Assembly (NCBI GenBank): GCA_902768985.1
Contig: CACXNA010000019.1
Location: 1 to 34,998, forward strand
Reading direction: 5' to 3'
DNA length: 34,998 nucleotides
Origin: an uncultured Bacteroidia bacterium
GTDB lineage: Bacteria; Bacteroidota; Bacteroidia; Bacteroidales; UBA932
This document shows, piece by piece, positions 2,193 to 28,655 of the stretch; the stretch's first letter is position 1; each line of letters opens with the position of its first letter. The translations under genes were made by a program, and so were the position numbers. Below the pieces are notes generated by a model that was given only the letters and a program-made list of their open reading frames with translations, searched no databases and was not told the DNA's origin.

Positions 2193-3842
2193 ATGAAACG
2201 TATCCTGACCATAGGCATACTGTGCCTGTGCGCGGCGTTTGCGCGCGCGGGCGTGTTGGAAGATATTGTACCCCGGCCCGCTGAAGCGGTGCTGCAGAAC
2301 GGCAACGTGCGGGTGTCCGGCCTGCCGTTCAAATGCGACGCTTCCCTGCCCAAGGAGGCGCAGACCGCCGTGGCGGCCTTCGCGTCGCACCTGGGCTATG
2401 TGAGCGGCAAGAGCTGTCCCTTTGCCGCGCCGCCGGGCCTGGAGGCCGCGGTGGCGGCGGGCAAGGTGAAGGGGGCCCTTTTCCTGCGGGACGCTTCGCT
2501 GGGCGCCGAGGCCTACACCATTGAGGTGGCCTCGGGCCGCGTGATCGTCCGCGCCAGCGGCCTGTCCGGCGTGCGCTACGCGCTGGAGACGATTCGCCAG
2601 ATGCTGCCGGCGGCCATTTACGGCGAGCAGATCGCGGAGAAGGAGCGCTGGACGCTGCCCTGCTGCGTGATCCGCGACGAGCCGCGCTTCGCCTGGCGCG
2701 GCATGCACCTCGACTGCTCGCGCCACTTCTGGCAGGTCGAGGAGATCAAGCGCTACCTGGACGTGATGGCGATGTACAAGCTGAACCGCTTCCACTGGCA
2801 CCTCACGGACGACCAGGGCTGGCGCATCGAGATCAAGGCCTACCCGCTCCTGAACCAGATCGCCTGCTGGCGCGAAGGCACGATGGTGGGGCACGATTTC
2901 TCGTCGAACGACGGCATCCGCTACGGCGGCTTCTATACGCAGGAGGAGATTCGCGAGGTGGTGGCGTACGCCGCCGCGCGCGGCATCACGGTGGTGCCGG
3001 AGATCGACCTGCCCGGCCACATGCTGGCGGCCCTGTCCGCCTATCCCGAGCTGGGCTGCACGGGCGGTCCCTATTTCGCGTGGACGCGCTGGGGCGTGTC
3101 CGACCAGGTGCTGTGCGTGGGGAAGGAGAGCTCCTTCACGTTCCTGGAGGGCGTGCTGTCCGAGGTGGCGGCGCTCTTCCCGGGGGAGTACATCCACATC
3201 GGCGGCGACGAATGTCCGAAGGACGAATGGAAGAAGTGTCCGGACTGCCAGGCGCTGATCCGCGCCCTGGGCCTGAAGGACGACGGACGCTTCAGCGCCG
3301 AGCAATACCTGCAGAACTACGTGACGAAGCGCATCCAGGCCTTCCTGGCCACGAAGGGCAAGAAAATCATCGGCTGGGACGAGATCCTCGAAGGGGAGCT
3401 CGCACCGGGCGCGACCGTGATGTCCTGGCGGGGCACGGCGGGCGCCGTGGAGGCTTCCGCCAAAGGCTTCGACGCCATTCTCAGCCCCGTCTCGCACTGC
3501 TACTTCGACTACCGCCAGGCGGAGGATCCCGCCGGGGAGCCCGATAGCTTCGACGGCGTCGTCACGCTGGAGAAAATCTACTCGCTGGACCCGCTGGCGG
3601 GCGTCGACCCCGCCCAGGCGCATCACATCCTCGGCGTGCAGGCGAACCTCTGGACGGAATATATCAGCACGCCGGAGCACCTGGAATACATGCTGCTGCC
3701 GCGCATGCTGGCGCTCGCGGAGGTGCAGTGGTGCCCGGCCGGGCAGCGCGACCTCGAGCGCTTCCTGCGCGTGCTGCGCGAGCACGAATTCCCGGTCCTC
3801 GACCGGGCTGGCTACAATTATCGCAAGATCATAAACCAATAA
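2193..3842 (+). CDS. Secreted beta-N-acetylhexosaminidase, GH20 family
   Basis: A 549-residue glycoside hydrolase that removes terminal beta-linked GlcNAc/GalNAc from glycans such as mucin, N-glycans or chitooligosaccharides. A signal peptide is clear at residues 1-19 (MKRILTIGILCLCAAFARA). An N-terminal GH20b-like alpha/beta domain (about 25-160) precedes the TIM-barrel. Barrel motifs are HLTDDQGWRIEIKAYP, PEIDLPGH, and the catalytic pair D339-E340 in HIGGDEC, where Glu is acid/base and Asp assists the substrate acetamido group. GWDEILEG and the C-terminal LWTEY and EVQWC motifs complete the pocket. The length is normal for the family. The ATG at 2193 is chosen because it starts the signal peptide. 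Confidence 0.95.
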   Translation: MKRILTIGILCLCAAFARAGVLEDIVPRPAEAVLQNGNVRVSGLPFKCDASLPKEAQTAVAAFASHLGYVSGKSCPFAAPPGLEAAVAAGKVKGALFLRDASLGAEAYTIEVASGRVIVRASGLSGVRYALETIRQMLPAAIYGEQIAEKERWTLPCCVIRDEPRFAWRGMHLDCSRHFWQVEEIKRYLDVMAMYKLNRFHWHLTDDQGWRIEIKAYPLLNQIACWREGTMVGHDFSSNDGIRYGGFYTQEEIREVVAYAAARGITVVPEIDLPGHMLAALSAYPELGCTGGPYFAWTRWGVSDQVLCVGKESSFTFLEGVLSEVAALFPGEYIHIGGDECPKDEWKKCPDCQALIRALGLKDDGRFSAEQYLQNYVTKRIQAFLATKGKKIIGWDEILEGELAPGATVMSWRGTAGAVEASAKGFDAILSPVSHCYFDYRQAEDPAGEPDSFDGVVTLEKIYSLDPLAGVDPAQAHHILGVQANLWTEYISTPEHLEYMLLPRMLALAEVQWCPAGQRDLERFLRVLREHEFPVLDRAGYNYRKIINQ

Positions 3843-3850
3843 TCGTTAAT

Positions 3851-6800
3851 ATGAAGAAGTTTTTCCTGGCCCTCGCCTCCCTGGTCGCCGCGCTGCCGCT
3901 CCTGGCTGCGCCGGTGCAGGAAGAGGCGCGTTTGCTCCGCTTCCCCGCCGTGGGCGGCGGGAAGATCGTTTTCTGCTATGCAGGCGACCTCTACAGCGTC
4001 GACATCAACGGCGGCGCTGCCGTCAAGCTGACTTCTGACGTCGGCTATGAGTGTTTCCCGAAGGTCTCGCCGGACGGCAAGACCGTTGCCTTCACGGCGC
4101 AGTACGACGGCAACACCGAAGTGTACACCATTCCGATCACCGGCGGTGAGCCCAAACGCCTGACCTACAGCGGCCTCGTGAGCCGCGACCAGGTCGGCGA
4201 GCGCATGGGCCCCAACAACATCGTCATGGGCTGGACGCCCGACGGCAAGAAGATCGTCTACCGCAGCAAGCAGTGGTGCTTCAGCGGCCTGCGCGCGCAG
4301 CTCTGCCTGGTGGATGCGGAGGGCGGCCTGCCCGAGTTCATTCCGACCACGGAGGGCGGCTTCTGCTCCTATTCGCCGGACGGCAAGAAGCTCGCGATGA
4401 ACCGCATGTTCCGCGAGTTTCGCACCTGGAAGTACTACCGGGGCGGCCAGGCGGACGACATCTGGATCAACACCGTGGGCACGACCAAGCTCGAGAAGAT
4501 TACGGACAACGACGCCCAGGACATCTTCCCGATGTGGATCGGCAACGAGATCTACTACCTCTCCGACCGCGACCGGACGATGAACCTCTTCGTCTACGAC
4601 ACCAAGTCGAAGCAGACCCGCAAGGTGACCGACTTCACGGAATACGACTGCAAATTCCCGGCCCACAGCGCCGACGGCTACGTGGTCTTCGAGAACGGCG
4701 GATATATTTATAAGTACGACGTTCGCAAGGGTGCGGCCGAGAAGGTGACGATCCAGCTCGCCTCCGACGACGTCTGGAGCCGCAGCGAGTACCGCAGCGG
4801 CAACCTGTCCATCAACGGCTACAGTCTCTCTCCGGACGGCAAGCGCGTGCTGATGGTCGCCCGCGGCGACATCTTTTCCCTGCCGGCCGAGAAGGGCCCG
4901 GTGGTGAACATTTCCCGCTCGCCGGGCTCGCATGAGCGCGAGGCGGAGTGGAGCCCGGACGGCTCCCGCATCGCCTGGTTCTCCGACGCCTCCGGCGAAT
5001 ACCAGATCTACACCGCTCCCGCGGACAACATGACCCAGGCCACCTGCCTGACTTCCTTCACGGAAGGCTATCCGACCAACCTCCAGTGGAGCCCGGACGG
5101 CAAGAAGCTCTATTTCTCCACCCTGCACTGGGATGTGTGCGAGCTGGATGTCGACACCAAGGCGGTCAGCCGCATCATCGTGGGCAAGGACGCGGCCATC
5201 CGCGCCTTCACCCTCTCGCCGGACGGCGCCTGGGCGGCCTACACCACCGCGATGCCCAACTACATGAGCGCGCTCTATCTCTTCGACCTGAAGGCCCGCA
5301 AGAGCTATCAGGTCACGGACCGTTGGTACCCGGCCGGTCAGCCGCTCTTCTCGCGGGACGGCAAGTACCTCTTCTTCACCTCCTCCCGTGAGCTGCGTTC
5401 GCAGTACTCCGATGTGGAGTGGAATGCGTCCTACAGCCTCTCCGACTACGTCTTCATCCTCCCGCTGGCGAAGGATACGCCCAACCCGCTGACGCTGGGG
5501 AACGACGAGTATGAGATTCCGGGTCAAGCCCGGAATGACGACAAAGGCAAGGCGAATGACGGAAAGGGCAAAGCGAATGACGGAAAGGGGAAACCCGGTT
5601 CTGCAAATAGTCATTCCGGACTTGATCCGGAATCTCATACGACCAAAGTCGACGTGGACGGCCTCGCGCAGCGCGCGACGGCGCTCCCGCTGCCGGCCGG
5701 CCGCTACCGCCTCCTCCTCGCCGACGGCGACAAGCTGTACTACAGCTCGTTCGGCGGCTTCGGCGGCCCCGGCCCCGGCGGCCCTGGTGGCCGTGGCGCC
5801 GGTGCGTCCGTCAAGACCTTCGACCTGAAGACCCTGCAGACGGGCGACGGCCCCGCCGACATGCCGCTGGTCCTGACGCCCGACGCCAAGAAGGCGCTCG
5901 TGCGCAGCGACGGCAAGTACAAGGTCGTCGCGTTCGGCGGCGGTCCCGCCCGTGGCGGCGCTGCCGTGCCGACCGACGAGATCGACATGATGATCGACCA
6001 CGAGGCCGAATGGGCCCAGATCTACGACGAGAGCTGGCGCATCACGCGCGACAACTTCTATGTGGAGAACATGCACGGCGTGGATTGGGATCACATGCGC
6101 ACCAAATATGGCCAGATGCTGCCTTATGTCAAGCATCGCGACGACTTGACCTACCTGATCGGCGAACTGATCGGCGAGCTGAACATCGGCCACGCCTACA
6201 TCACTTCCGGCGAAAAGAAGGACATCCCGCGCATCGCGACGGGCCTGCTCGGCGCGCAGTACAGCAAGGACAAGGGCACGGGCGCCTTCAAGATCGAGAA
6301 GATCTTCCGCGGCGCCGACTGGGACGCCTCCCTGCGCAGCCCGCTCCGCGCCCCCGGCATTGACGCCAAGGTGGGCGAGTATATCGTGGAAGTGAACGGT
6401 ACTCCGGCTAAGGATCTGGTCGATCCCGGCCAGGCCCTGATTGGCAAGGCCGACAAGACCGTCTCCCTGAAGATCGCGTCCAACGCCTCCGGCAAGAACG
6501 CCCGCACCGTGTACGTCAAGCCCGTGGCGGACGAGGCCAACCTCGCCTATTACGAGTGGGTGCAGACGAACATCGAGAAGGTGGACAAGCTCTCCAACGG
6601 AGAGATCGGCTACATCCACATTCCCGACATGAGCACCGAAGGCCTGGACATGTTCACCAAGCTCTTCTACACGCAGCTCGACAAGAAGGCCCTCATCGTG
6701 GATGACCGCATGAACGGCGGCGGCAACGTCTCGCCGATGATCCTGGAGCGTCTCCAGCGCGAGGTGTACCGGGTCAACATGTACCGCAACGGCGGCAACC

Positions 6801-7201
6801 AGCCGGTCCCGAACGAGGCCTTCTACGGCCCGAAGGTCTGTCTGATTGACAAGTATTCCTCCTCCGACGGCGACCTCTTCCCGTATGGCTTCCGCCAGCT
6901 GGGCCTGGGCAAGCTGATCGGCACCCGCTCCTGGGGCGGCATCGTGGGCATCACCAGTTCCCGCCAGTTCGTGGACGGGCAGGACATGCGCACGCCGTTC
7001 TTCACCTCCTATTCCACGGACGGTGAGTGGATCATCGAGGGCCACGGCGTCGATCCCGACATCGTGGTGGACATCAACCCCTTCGAGGACTGGCTCGGCA
7101 AGGACGCCCAGCTCGAGAAGGCGGTCGAGTACCTCAAGGGCGAGCTGAAGAACTACAAGCCGCTCCCCGGCACCCCCGCCGCTCCGGACAAGAGCAAGTA
7201 G
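3851..7201 (+). CDS. Secreted tricorn-like peptidase (S41), with palindromic repeat in frame
   Basis: A 1116-residue periplasmic or surface peptidase related to archaeal tricorn protease. The signal peptide spans residues 1-20. PD40/TolB-like beta-propeller repeats fill about 25-600 (many SPDGK motifs). A PDZ domain follows at about 795-880 and the S41 protease core at about 905-1085. By comparison with tricorn the catalytic set is H781 (in IGHAY), S1005-D1006 (in SSSDGD) and E1063 (in IIEGHGVDPD), with DDRMNGGGN as oxyanion region, so it is probably active. Odd: residues 554-597 are encoded by a 130-bp palindromic element that keeps the frame and gives a GKANDGKGKAND-type low-complexity linker. 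A Gly/Pro-rich loop follows at about 636-652. The start lies 8 bases after the GH20 stop, suggesting co-transcription. Confidence 0.93.
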   Translation: MKKFFLALASLVAALPLLAAPVQEEARLLRFPAVGGGKIVFCYAGDLYSVDINGGAAVKLTSDVGYECFPKVSPDGKTVAFTAQYDGNTEVYTIPITGGEPKRLTYSGLVSRDQVGERMGPNNIVMGWTPDGKKIVYRSKQWCFSGLRAQLCLVDAEGGLPEFIPTTEGGFCSYSPDGKKLAMNRMFREFRTWKYYRGGQADDIWINTVGTTKLEKITDNDAQDIFPMWIGNEIYYLSDRDRTMNLFVYDTKSKQTRKVTDFTEYDCKFPAHSADGYVVFENGGYIYKYDVRKGAAEKVTIQLASDDVWSRSEYRSGNLSINGYSLSPDGKRVLMVARGDIFSLPAEKGPVVNISRSPGSHEREAEWSPDGSRIAWFSDASGEYQIYTAPADNMTQATCLTSFTEGYPTNLQWSPDGKKLYFSTLHWDVCELDVDTKAVSRIIVGKDAAIRAFTLSPDGAWAAYTTAMPNYMSALYLFDLKARKSYQVTDRWYPAGQPLFSRDGKYLFFTSSRELRSQYSDVEWNASYSLSDYVFILPLAKDTPNPLTLGNDEYEIPGQARNDDKGKANDGKGKANDGKGKPGSANSHSGLDPESHTTKVDVDGLAQRATALPLPAGRYRLLLADGDKLYYSSFGGFGGPGPGGPGGRGAGASVKTFDLKTLQTGDGPADMPLVLTPDAKKALVRSDGKYKVVAFGGGPARGGAAVPTDEIDMMIDHEAEWAQIYDESWRITRDNFYVENMHGVDWDHMRTKYGQMLPYVKHRDDLTYLIGELIGELNIGHAYITSGEKKDIPRIATGLLGAQYSKDKGTGAFKIEKIFRGADWDASLRSPLRAPGIDAKVGEYIVEVNGTPAKDLVDPGQALIGKADKTVSLKIASNASGKNARTVYVKPVADEANLAYYEWVQTNIEKVDKLSNGEIGYIHIPDMSTEGLDMFTKLFYTQLDKKALIVDDRMNGGGNVSPMILERLQREVYRVNMYRNGGNQPVPNEAFYGPKVCLIDKYSSSDGDLFPYGFRQLGLGKLIGTRSWGGIVGITSSRQFVDGQDMRTPFFTSYSTDGEWIIEGHGVDPDIVVDINPFEDWLGKDAQLEKAVEYLKGELKNYKPLPGTPAAPDKSK
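5510..5639 (+). repeat. 130-bp palindromic element inserted in the tricorn-like gene
   Basis: Two 30-base ends (5510-5539 and 5610-5639) are near-perfect inverted copies of each other. Each contains its own small palindrome ATTCCGGG-N5-CCCGGAAT (or a variant). Between them lie short tandem repeats (GACGGAAAGGGCAAAGCGAAT type). The outermost bases are TA on both sides, which fits a TA target as used by IS630/Tc1-type elements, though this is only suggestive. The core inside the TA pairs is 126 bp, which is 42 codons. Single half-elements occur at 9884 and 28262. Confidence 0.85.
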
Positions 7202-9875: not shown

Positions 9876-9881
9876 TTATAG

Positions 9882-10556
9882 TCATTCCGGGCTTGACCCG
9901 GAATCTACGAACTGCCCGTCCCGCATCGTGAGGGTGCGGTCGCAGAGGGCGGCCAGCTCGGGATCGTGCGTCACGATCACGATGGTCTGCCCGAGGCGGT
10001 CGCGCAGGGAGAAGAGCAGGCGGTGGATTTCCTGCTTGGTGGCGGAATCGAGATTGCCCGTGGGCTCGTCGGCGAAGAGCACCGCCGGGTCGTTGACCAA
10101 CGCGCGGGCGATGGCGACGCGCTGCTGTTCGCCGCCCGACAGCTCGCCGGGCTTGTGGTCCAGGCGGGCCTGCAGGCCCACTTCGCCCAGCAGGCGGACG
10201 GCCTTCGCGCGCGCCTCTTTCATCGGCACCCCGGCGATCAGCGCCGGGATGAGCACGTTCTCCTCGGCCGTGAACTCCGGCAGCAGGTGGTGCGCCTGGA
10301 AGACGAAGCCGATGCGGCGGCCGCGGAAGGCGGCCAGCGCGTCGCCCCGCAGGGCCAGGACGTCCTGGCCGTCGATCGTCAGGCTGCCGCCGTCCGGCGT
10401 GGACAGCGTGCCGAGGATCTGCAGGAGCGTGGATTTGCCGGCGCCGGAGGCGCCCATGATGGACACGACTTCGTGCGCCTCGGCGCTGAAGTCGATCCCC
10501 TTCAGGACCTCCAGGGTCCCGAAATGCTTGCGAATGCCACGTGCTTCGATGATCAT
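9882..10556 (-). CDS. ABC transporter ATP-binding protein, LolD/MacB-type
   Basis: A 224-residue ATPase: Walker [10 protein letters not shown] (35-43), Q-loop [11 protein letters not shown], signature [15 protein letters not shown] (139-153), Walker B VLFADEP (159-165), H-loop VTHD. EEN and the TGNLDS extension are typical of the LolD/MacB/FtsE class, which drives lipoprotein release or peptide/drug export with a separate permease. No permease lies next to it, so the partner is elsewhere. The last residues VDSGSSPE and the TGA stop are supplied by a palindromic repeat (9884-9904), so the native C-terminus has been replaced. The start ATG at 10556 lies four bases after a -7 box. Named LolD by similarity only. 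Confidence 0.9.
9884..9904 (-). repeat. Palindromic half-element at the 3' end of the lolD-like gene
   Basis: A perfect 8-5-8 palindrome ATTCCGGG-CTTGA-CCCGGAAT, the same unit as in the tricorn-like insertion and at 28262. It encodes the final residues and overlaps the stop of the ATPase gene. Confidence 0.85.
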
Positions 10557-28245: not shown

Positions 28246-28655
28246 TGCGCGGAGGATTGAGATTCCGGGTCAAGCCCGGAATGACTATTCTCTATTTTCG
28301 CCTGGATACGTCCAAGGATGTCCGTGACCTCGGCGTAGAGGGTGGCGAAGTCAGCGACCTCGGCGTGGGAGTAGGCGAGCAGGAGGTCGATGCCGGGGGC
28401 CGGGAGGAGCTCCTTCTGGAGGCGGTAGGCCTCGCGCATGCGGCGCTTCAGGAGGTTGCGCTTGACGGCGCGCTTGAAGAACTTCTTCGGCACGGAGACC
28501 ATGATCCGGTTGACGCCGGTCTCATGCCCCGCGGACCAGCAGAAGCGCAGGTGCGGCGTAGTGCCCCATTTCCCGGAGGAAATGAGTGCGGAGACGGTCG
28601 TCTTCCCGCACAGCCTTTCCTCTTTGGTGAGAGTATGGCTCTGCGGAGAAGTCAT
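28242..28655 (-). CDS. rnpA: Ribonuclease P protein component, with repeat-derived C-terminal tail
   Basis: A 137-residue basic protein that assists the RNase P RNA in cutting tRNA 5' leaders. The RNR signature is [19 protein letters not shown] (about 70-88), and the central SVPKKFFK and the N-terminal [15 protein letters not shown] are typical. The native fold seems to end near [10 protein letters not shown]; the last 15 residues ([10 protein letters not shown] and a short tail) come from the palindromic half-element at 28262-28282, and the same [10 protein letters not shown] peptide occurs in the tricorn-like insertion. The stop overlaps yidD. The start abuts hemD with no gap. Confidence 0.94.
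28262..28282 (+). repeat. Palindromic half-element at the 3' end of rnpA
   Basis: Perfect 8-5-8 palindrome ATTCCGGG-TCAAG-CCCGGAAT, flanked by GAG and GACTA as in the tricorn-like element. It lies in the coding sequence of rnpA (minus strand). Confidence 0.85.

Follow-up and report, generated by a model that had tools for sequence, protein, structure and literature searches.

A Pair of CGTC-Type REP Hairpins in the Reading Frame of a Tricorn-like Protease Gene from Bacteroidales and the Probable Overwriting of Older Hairpins by Newer Ones

Introduction

How does a protease gene come to contain a long inverted repeat that leaves its reading frame open? This question is raised by a gene for a tricorn-like S41 peptidase whose N terminus is signal-like (3851–7201, plus strand; beta-propeller, C1, PDZ, and S41; Pfam PD40, Tricorn_C1, PDZ_Tricorn, and Peptidase_S41). 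It lies in a 34,998-nucleotide stretch of DNA from an uncultured Bacteroidia bacterium (the window), whose 2.35 Mb genome we call the own genome; G- and L-numbers denote genomes and loci. A sequence-only reading of the window had described the repeat as one 130-bp element with 30-base terminal inverted repeats, had likened it to the in-frame palindromic elements of Rickettsia, and had considered such a case poorly described in Bacteroidales.

Small hairpin repeats of a comparable kind have been surveyed under the name CGTC-REPs (Di Nocera, De Gregorio and Rocco 2013, PMC3733652). As far as the accessible text of that survey goes, they consist of an unpaired tag CGTC (or TGTC/CCTC), a stem of 8–9 bp beginning with a paired AT, a loop of 4–5 nt, and in most cases the tail CCA. 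They are mostly intergenic, count Bacteroidetes among their hosts, and lie within genes in several species; dimers with the tags outside predominate, and the other kind is rare. The same text reports different REPs at about the same recB site in two Xanthomonas species and associates no transposase with CGTC-REPs. It also assigns the Rickettsia elements RPE-4 and RPE-6 to this group. The sequence-only reading was right to liken the repeat to the Rickettsia elements.

Results and Discussion

Anatomy of the Inverted Repeat

The frame from 3728 to 7201 comprises 1157 codons and is free of stops across the repeat, just as had been claimed from the sequence; GTG 3728 is a possible start, ATG 3851 the more likely one. 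The two arms of the repeat (5509–5539 and 5610–5640) are 31 nt long, 94% complementary, and 70 nt apart. Folding of this stretch compared with shuffled sequences gives z scores of −6.2 for DNA and −7.5 for RNA, and 0 of 200 shuffles was equally stable. Each arm by itself is a complete 25-nt REP hairpin, GTC-ATTCCGG(G/A)-CTTGA-(C/T)CCGGAAT-C, which on the tag strand runs from GTC through an 8-nt arm, ATTCCGG(G/A), the loop CTTGA, and the complementary arm to a final C. This hairpin occurs four times in the window, where 0 occurrences are expected.

In the pair, the tags point inside and the tails outside. The left hairpin (5515–5539, minus strand; GTC tag at 5537–5539, loop CTTGA) has the stem ATTCCGGG and is translated as IPGQARND; the right hairpin (5610–5634, plus strand; GTC tag at 5610–5612, loop CTTGA) has a different stem, ATTCCGGA, and is translated as HSGLDPES. 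Between them, a remnant of an older REP type, the tag-side half GGCGAATGAC (5551–5560, minus strand), lies 21 nt from the left tag, and a second half-remnant, GCGAATGAC (5573–5581, minus strand), follows a further 21 nt on. Together the two half-remnants are the 21-nt direct repeats of the window, read as NDGKGKA. A pattern scan located the two other copies at 9881–9905 (tag on the plus strand) and 28261–28285 (tag on the minus strand). Inspected by eye, the former may provide the last codons and the stop of a frame that enters it.

Pairing of the arms extends 4 bases past both REPs (5509–5512 and 5637–5640; GTAT/ATAC) into host codons. These codons (DEY) are also present in relatives without any repeat. 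They predate the insertion, and the extra pairing could be chance or the trace of an inverted copy. The TA at both ends is therefore not a target-site signature. Among 81 copies of the family in the own genome, TA is common after the tag (66 copies have T at +1 and 63 have A at +2), and GA usually precedes the tail.

The Tricorn Site in Related Genomes

We scanned named genomes and obtained 80 loci, the closest mostly from uncultured ruminant-gut Bacteroidales; we examined the first 24 and L073. The nearest homologues, L246 and L247 (96% and 94% identity), contain the left hairpin with stem ATTCCGGG and lack the right arm, which indicates that the arms were acquired separately. The right REP is present in L248, where the pair has the other stem, ATTCCGGA. 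An intact hairpin of the type ATTCGCCGG occupies the site in L250, and a pair headed by ATTCGCCGG occupies it in L252 and L255; since this hairpin is 3 nt longer, the reading frame is kept. Decayed REPs were found in L251 and L254, a possible decayed copy in L265, and none in the other 15 sequences examined. All nine occupied sequences (the own gene and eight relatives) begin their insert right after the same codon, TAY, with an identical left junction. The alignments show different REP types at the same codon in different species.

The sequence-only reading had suggested that close homologues should reveal an empty site, and one is indeed seen: G008, whose sequence is identical to L256, has an orthologue at 83% identity without the insert. 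The insertion is likewise absent from 28 of 28 homologues in relatives' genomes whose alignment spans the site, a set that includes G008, and none of those genes contains a GTCAT hairpin.

These observations bear on the idea of a single miniature transposon of 130 bp that arrived in one jump, like a Rickettsia palindromic element. Its inverted arms were recovered and slightly extended, as they pair over 31 nt and are read through in frame, but the rest of the description did not hold. The arms have different stems, L246 and L247 have one arm without the other, single hairpins prevail among the 81 copies of the own genome, and the space between the arms is taken up by REP remnants. Over about 300 kb of the own genome, a second copy of the 70-nt core was not found, and the longest match to the whole 130-bp element was at most 34 nt. 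The features of a MITE are not seen either: no target-site duplication is visible at L055, the one clean empty site examined, and the two ends do not move as one unit, as the single arm in L246 and L247 illustrates. We regard a single transposon as extremely improbable. Judged by these comparisons, the feature in the window consists of two REPs that were acquired separately and that enclose what is left of an older REP.

A Dispersed Family of REPs

A genome search for the repeat ends, which the sequence-only reading had proposed, revealed a family that is not confined to the window. With up to 3 mismatches the pattern matches 82 times on 21 of the 28 contigs of the own genome, and 65 of these matches are without mismatch to a pattern that has two free positions; the reversed-pattern control gave 0. 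This is the distribution of a high-copy, dispersed element. Single hairpins form the majority of the 81 matches listed in detail, and the flanks of these copies show little target consensus except GA and TAT beside the hairpin.

Own-genome loci chosen around REP copies contain 87 exact GTCAT hairpins, 61 of which have the stem ATTCCGGG with the loop CTTGA. The GTC, like the AT after it, is constant across the 87 because the scan demanded GTCAT; the base before the GTC is A in 67, C in 19, and G in 1, and C in several relatives. The stem comprises 8 bp beginning with a paired AT, although the 9-bp type ATTCGCCGG also exists, and the loop is CTTGA in 66 and 6 nt long in 10 of the 87. The tail reads CTC in 51, CCC in 15, CTA in 12, CTT in 6, and otherwise in 3 of these hairpins, and thus differs from the published CCA.

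Beyond the own genome, the pattern matches in 22 of 61 genomes (own included), and a covariance model finds matches in 28 of the 61, that is, in 25 of 37 genomes of the genus and in 3 of 24 elsewhere in the order. In a set of 121 genomes of the genus, REP matches are present in 77; in this set, counts near 64 copies are to be read as at least 64. Among the matches listed, G003, G019, and G020 mostly have the stem ATTCCCGG, and G058 has ATTGCGGG. Across 12 stem variants from different species, compensatory change is seen in 5 of 8 pairs and one-sided change in 0, a count that is biased because the variants were picked as hairpins. With this proviso, the comparison shows that the stem of this dispersed family varies from species to species through matching changes in its two arms. 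Other dispersed palindromes with the foot GAT...ATGAC are present at L004, L011, L036, and L071, for example GTCATTCTGAGCGAAGCGAAGAATC and GATCCTTCG..CTCAGGATGAC.

REPs within Reading Frames

Seventeen genes of the own genome contain at least 20 in-frame copies between them. The products are the tricorn-like peptidase (two copies), a GSCFA protein, an outer-membrane efflux protein, a porin, EamA, DsbD, RmlB, a glycosyltransferase, PrmC, a VKOR-domain protein, an OstA protein (two), TrpC, a MacB-type permease, IspG, MetH (two), AlkD, and MutL. From 64 candidate frames, 20 proteins were taken to Pfam. Because codon usage often scored both strands as coding, we accepted a gene on Pfam domains together with an orthologue alignment; the exception is L061 (AlkD), which has no match in G008 and was counted on a Pfam domain that spans the insert. 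Outside the 17 genes, the copies at L026 (DUF1573, C-terminal), L036 (after peptidase U32), and L071 (Wzy ligase) are candidates only.

Accepted genes hold 20 of the 81 copies, in addition to the 3 candidates. Against an assumed coding fraction of 88%, 20 of 82 matches in genes is a strong depletion, where the 20 refers to accepted genes only, and would follow from the removal of most insertions into genes. The hairpin can be read without a stop in four of its six frames, and the in-gene copies use each of these four. In 12 pairwise comparisons covering eight REP-bearing genes, dN/dS lies between 0.04 and 0.25, which places these eight genes under purifying selection; the values are pairwise and do not describe the own branch alone. 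At 17 orthologous in-gene sites, G008 is palindrome-free in 15 and has a REP with another stem in two (MacB and MetH). On the evidence of these genes, the comparisons show that REPs, which are small, apparently non-autonomous elements, have inserted in frame in many genes, and that the genes tested are under purifying selection.

The protease gene itself has a dN/dS of 0.048 against its closest homologue. In an AlphaFold2 model built from 46 sequences (mean pLDDT 79), residues 551–594 fall below a pLDDT of 50 and are predicted to be disordered; they correspond to the insert at residues 554–597. The model places the insert in an inter-strand loop of a beta-strand-rich part, with strands resuming at 617–694. 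The sequence-only reading was right to expect a tolerant place, but its placement at the border of the protease core is not borne out. A disordered insert in a loop fits passive tolerance.

Alternatively, the hairpin or its peptide could be useful to the host through mRNA stability, regulation, or as a functional linker. The hairpin is strong as RNA, and the left REP has been kept in the own gene, L246, and L247. Type, number, and presence shift fast between species, however; the peptide is predicted to be disordered, and the same hairpin is read in four frames in unrelated genes. A use to the host therefore seems very unlikely to us.

Some of these insertions appear to be recent. G104 has the same sequence as L246 at the tricorn locus and about 92% DNA identity to the own genome over 85 kb. 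When 32 own copies were compared with G104, 22 could be anchored on both sides and 10 lacked a two-sided anchor. The 22 anchored sites comprise 11 with an identical hairpin, four with a changed hairpin at the same site (tolC L007, L055, L065, and L070), and seven occupied in the own genome only (the right arm of the window, prmC, rmlB, ispG, a porin gene, L032, and L055). The sites in prmC, rmlB, and ispG are also palindrome-free in G008, so these three are most simply gains in the own lineage. Separately, the segment 7208–20696 of the window is apparently inverted relative to G104, and a REP copy is found at neither breakpoint.

Remnants and Probable Overwriting

The remnants beside intact REPs suggest how one type may have succeeded another. 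In L247 the new hairpin is followed by 9 nt, then by CCGGCGAATGAC, and then by nearly the same flank. This CCGGCGAATGAC represents the tag and the adjoining arm of the hairpin ATTCGCCGG, which L250 retains intact. The older-type remnant is shorter or decayed in the own gene, L246, and L248; the own remnant GGCGAATGAC agrees with the tag and its arm in the ATTCGCCGG-type REP that is intact in L250.

The arrangement recurs elsewhere. In the loci analyzed from the own genome and G104, a further tag half lies upstream of 16 of 88 and 8 of 47 full REPs, at a distance of 19–22 nt in 15 of the 16 and in 8 of 8 cases, respectively. Random anchors predict 0.36 such half-sites among the 88 (P about 8e-22), and the same scan found tail-side repeats at 5 of 88 and 2 of 47. 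At least one own half-site, L004 (at 27 nt), has the look of a whole repeat from a different family, and two of the eight G104 half-sites (L359 and L367) are orthologous to half-sites of the own genome. Six other relatives, taken together as a mixed set, speak against the pattern: tag-side halves (10 of 39 REPs) are no more frequent there than same-orientation tail-side repeats (11), and the spacing is looser, at 12–23 nt; tag halves number 2 of 30 in G003 and 0 of 15 in G058. At L014 and L038, a second inverted repeat around ACAGGTGTCCA / TGGACACCT adjoins the REP on its upstream side.

Most half-sites share the stem type of the adjoining full REP and could be slippage duplications, whereas those of another type (in the window, L012, L038, and L059) cannot be explained by simple tandem duplication. 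This distinction matters for the view that ordinary hairpin slippage and compensated point mutation suffice and that no REP is laid over another. Same-type halves agree with it, as does L048, where the own genome and G104 differ by 21 nt resembling a tandem duplication, and single-pair changes such as that at L055 are easily made. The cross-type halves do not agree with it, and neither does the switch from an 8-bp stem with a 5-nt loop to a 9-bp stem with a 6-nt loop at one codon; moreover, the spacers share, by eye, few bases with the flank that would have been duplicated. We consider slippage alone unlikely. The longest pre-tag flanks shared between copies (7–10 nt) are slightly above a column-shuffled control, and our search for a donor of the spacers found none beyond this small excess.

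A different account is that a preferred target was hit several times, independently, by different REP types. On a gene tree of 25 homologues with the linker left out, scored as present in the own gene and its eight occupied relatives and as absent in L265, presence and absence require six changes, and well-supported branches force at least five. With so many changes, and a left junction identical in nine occupied sequences, repeated independent insertion is possible, yet we think it rather unlikely: the 81 copies have little flank consensus beyond GA and TAT, and remnants of an old type beside a new REP indicate that the site had an earlier occupant in that lineage.

The reading we favor, with a probability of roughly 0.6, is that the window contains a pair of dispersed, CGTC-type REPs in a disordered loop of a working protease and that new REPs overwrite resident ones from the tail side. 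A new copy would be laid over the resident REP such that the junction to host DNA is kept and the tag half of the resident is left about 21 nt from the new tag. Repetition of this event would exchange old REP types at old sites for the type active in that genome. Survival within genes may be aided by the four open frames of six, by a step of 21 nt that equals seven codons, and by sites in flexible loops, while the encoded peptide is, in all probability, neutral. The likely substrate of the process is a hairpin in single-stranded or extruded form (lagging strand or cruciform), and the agent is probably a candidate HUH-type nuclease or template switching provoked by the hairpin.

More tentatively, and at somewhat less than even odds, resident REPs could serve as landing pads for new ones, in a fixed register of about 21 nt (two helical turns) and with the host junction on the tail side retained, so that sites including those in essential genes would be re-typed repeatedly by the active stem. 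The idea that REPs replace one another reportedly goes back to Higgins et al. in 1988 ('Evolution by gene conversion?'). The orthologous sites, the old-type remnants, and the 19–22-nt register described here go beyond that idea in that they give it a concrete anatomy.

A Candidate Mobilizer

A family of HUH (Y1 transposase-like) proteins in the genus, for example L031 1396–2316, could be a dedicated mobilizer of the REPs, a proposition we find distinctly doubtful. Within the genus, 105 of the 121 genomes encode members: 45 of 45 with at least five REPs and 60 of the 76 others. The family correlates with REP number (Spearman 0.41; integrase control 0.05), and the residues H-x-H, Y, and N are invariant among 12 aligned members. 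Co-occurrence was assessed over 61 and 121 genomes and compared with an IspG tree that covered the own genome and 26 of 30 selected genomes. Genomes without the HUH family cluster on this tree, such that about three changes carry the correlation; since ancestry can explain it, we rejected the correlation as evidence for a mobilizer. Outside the genus, G058, G044, and G053 have 38, 14, and 5 REPs and no HUH member. REPs are not enriched near HUH genes either (3 in 160 kb around 56 genes, compared with 7 in 99 kb at 23 control loci, whose number is biased upward by the in-gene REP sites among them). A GTCAT hairpin flanks the HUH gene at 0 of 20 loci (L102–L121) and at 3 of 56 in a wider set (L143, L156, and L167).

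Three side observations concern proteins of this type. HUH/Y1-like paralogues are numerous and diverse in the genus, with up to 17 matches per genome; the member at L031:1396-2316 scores below the cut-off of Pfam PF01797; and at L014 an HUH-type gene begins about 260 bp beyond the REP.

Relation to Known Systems and Implications

Within the accessible text of the 2013 survey (PMC3733652), the REPs of the window resemble CGTC-REPs in their unpaired tag ending in GTC, a stem of 8–9 bp starting with AT, a 5-nt loop, dispersal, and occasional presence in genes. Unlike the elements described there, own copies mostly have the tag AGTC (67 of 87; CGTC in 19 of 87) and the tail CTC instead of CCA, are mostly single, form a tags-inside pair in the window, and are accompanied by fossil halves at 19–22 nt. 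With Rickettsia RPE-4 and RPE-6 they share hairpins in frame within genes, but the host phylum and the stem are different, and the part of the survey on which this comparison rests does not describe a succession of types at one codon. GTAG REPs and REPINs with their RAYT/TnpA-REP proteins, as represented in the accessible parts of PMC3116915, PMC6006769, and PMC8266576, are also small hairpins with a tag at the foot; here, however, the tag is GTC, and single hairpins rather than doublets are common. The RAYT arrangement, in which the tag is GTAG-like and a Y1 transposase gene is flanked by REPs, is not what we found, with 0 of 20 HUH loci flanked.

The view that such cases are poorly described in Bacteroidales needs to be divided. 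REPs in genes and the presence of CGTC-REPs in Bacteroidetes were already published, as the accessible text of PMC3733652 states, while their scale and turnover in Bacteroidales are apparently new. Among open-licence literature we found no study of in-gene CGTC-REPs in Bacteroidales, and the accessible parts of PMC6006769, PMC3116915, PMC8049555, PMC12306157, PMC2635572, and PMC8266576 contain neither a succession of types at one codon nor fossil halves. The element is thus of a known kind, and its scale in Bacteroidales, the succession at one site, and the fossil halves appear to be new.

On the old question of how CGTC-REPs spread, the accessible text of the 2013 survey (PMC3733652) names no dedicated transposase; the succession of types at orthologous sites and the fossil halves provide a readable record of this process. 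If resident REPs do act as landing pads, REP turnover would be a homing-like, hairpin-borne process, and species-specific stems would be explained without new insertions. The genus offers many MAGs with dozens of copies and with recent in-frame insertions in core genes (ispG, prmC, and rmlB), so that both the mechanism of insertion and the tolerance of proteins toward short inserts become testable.
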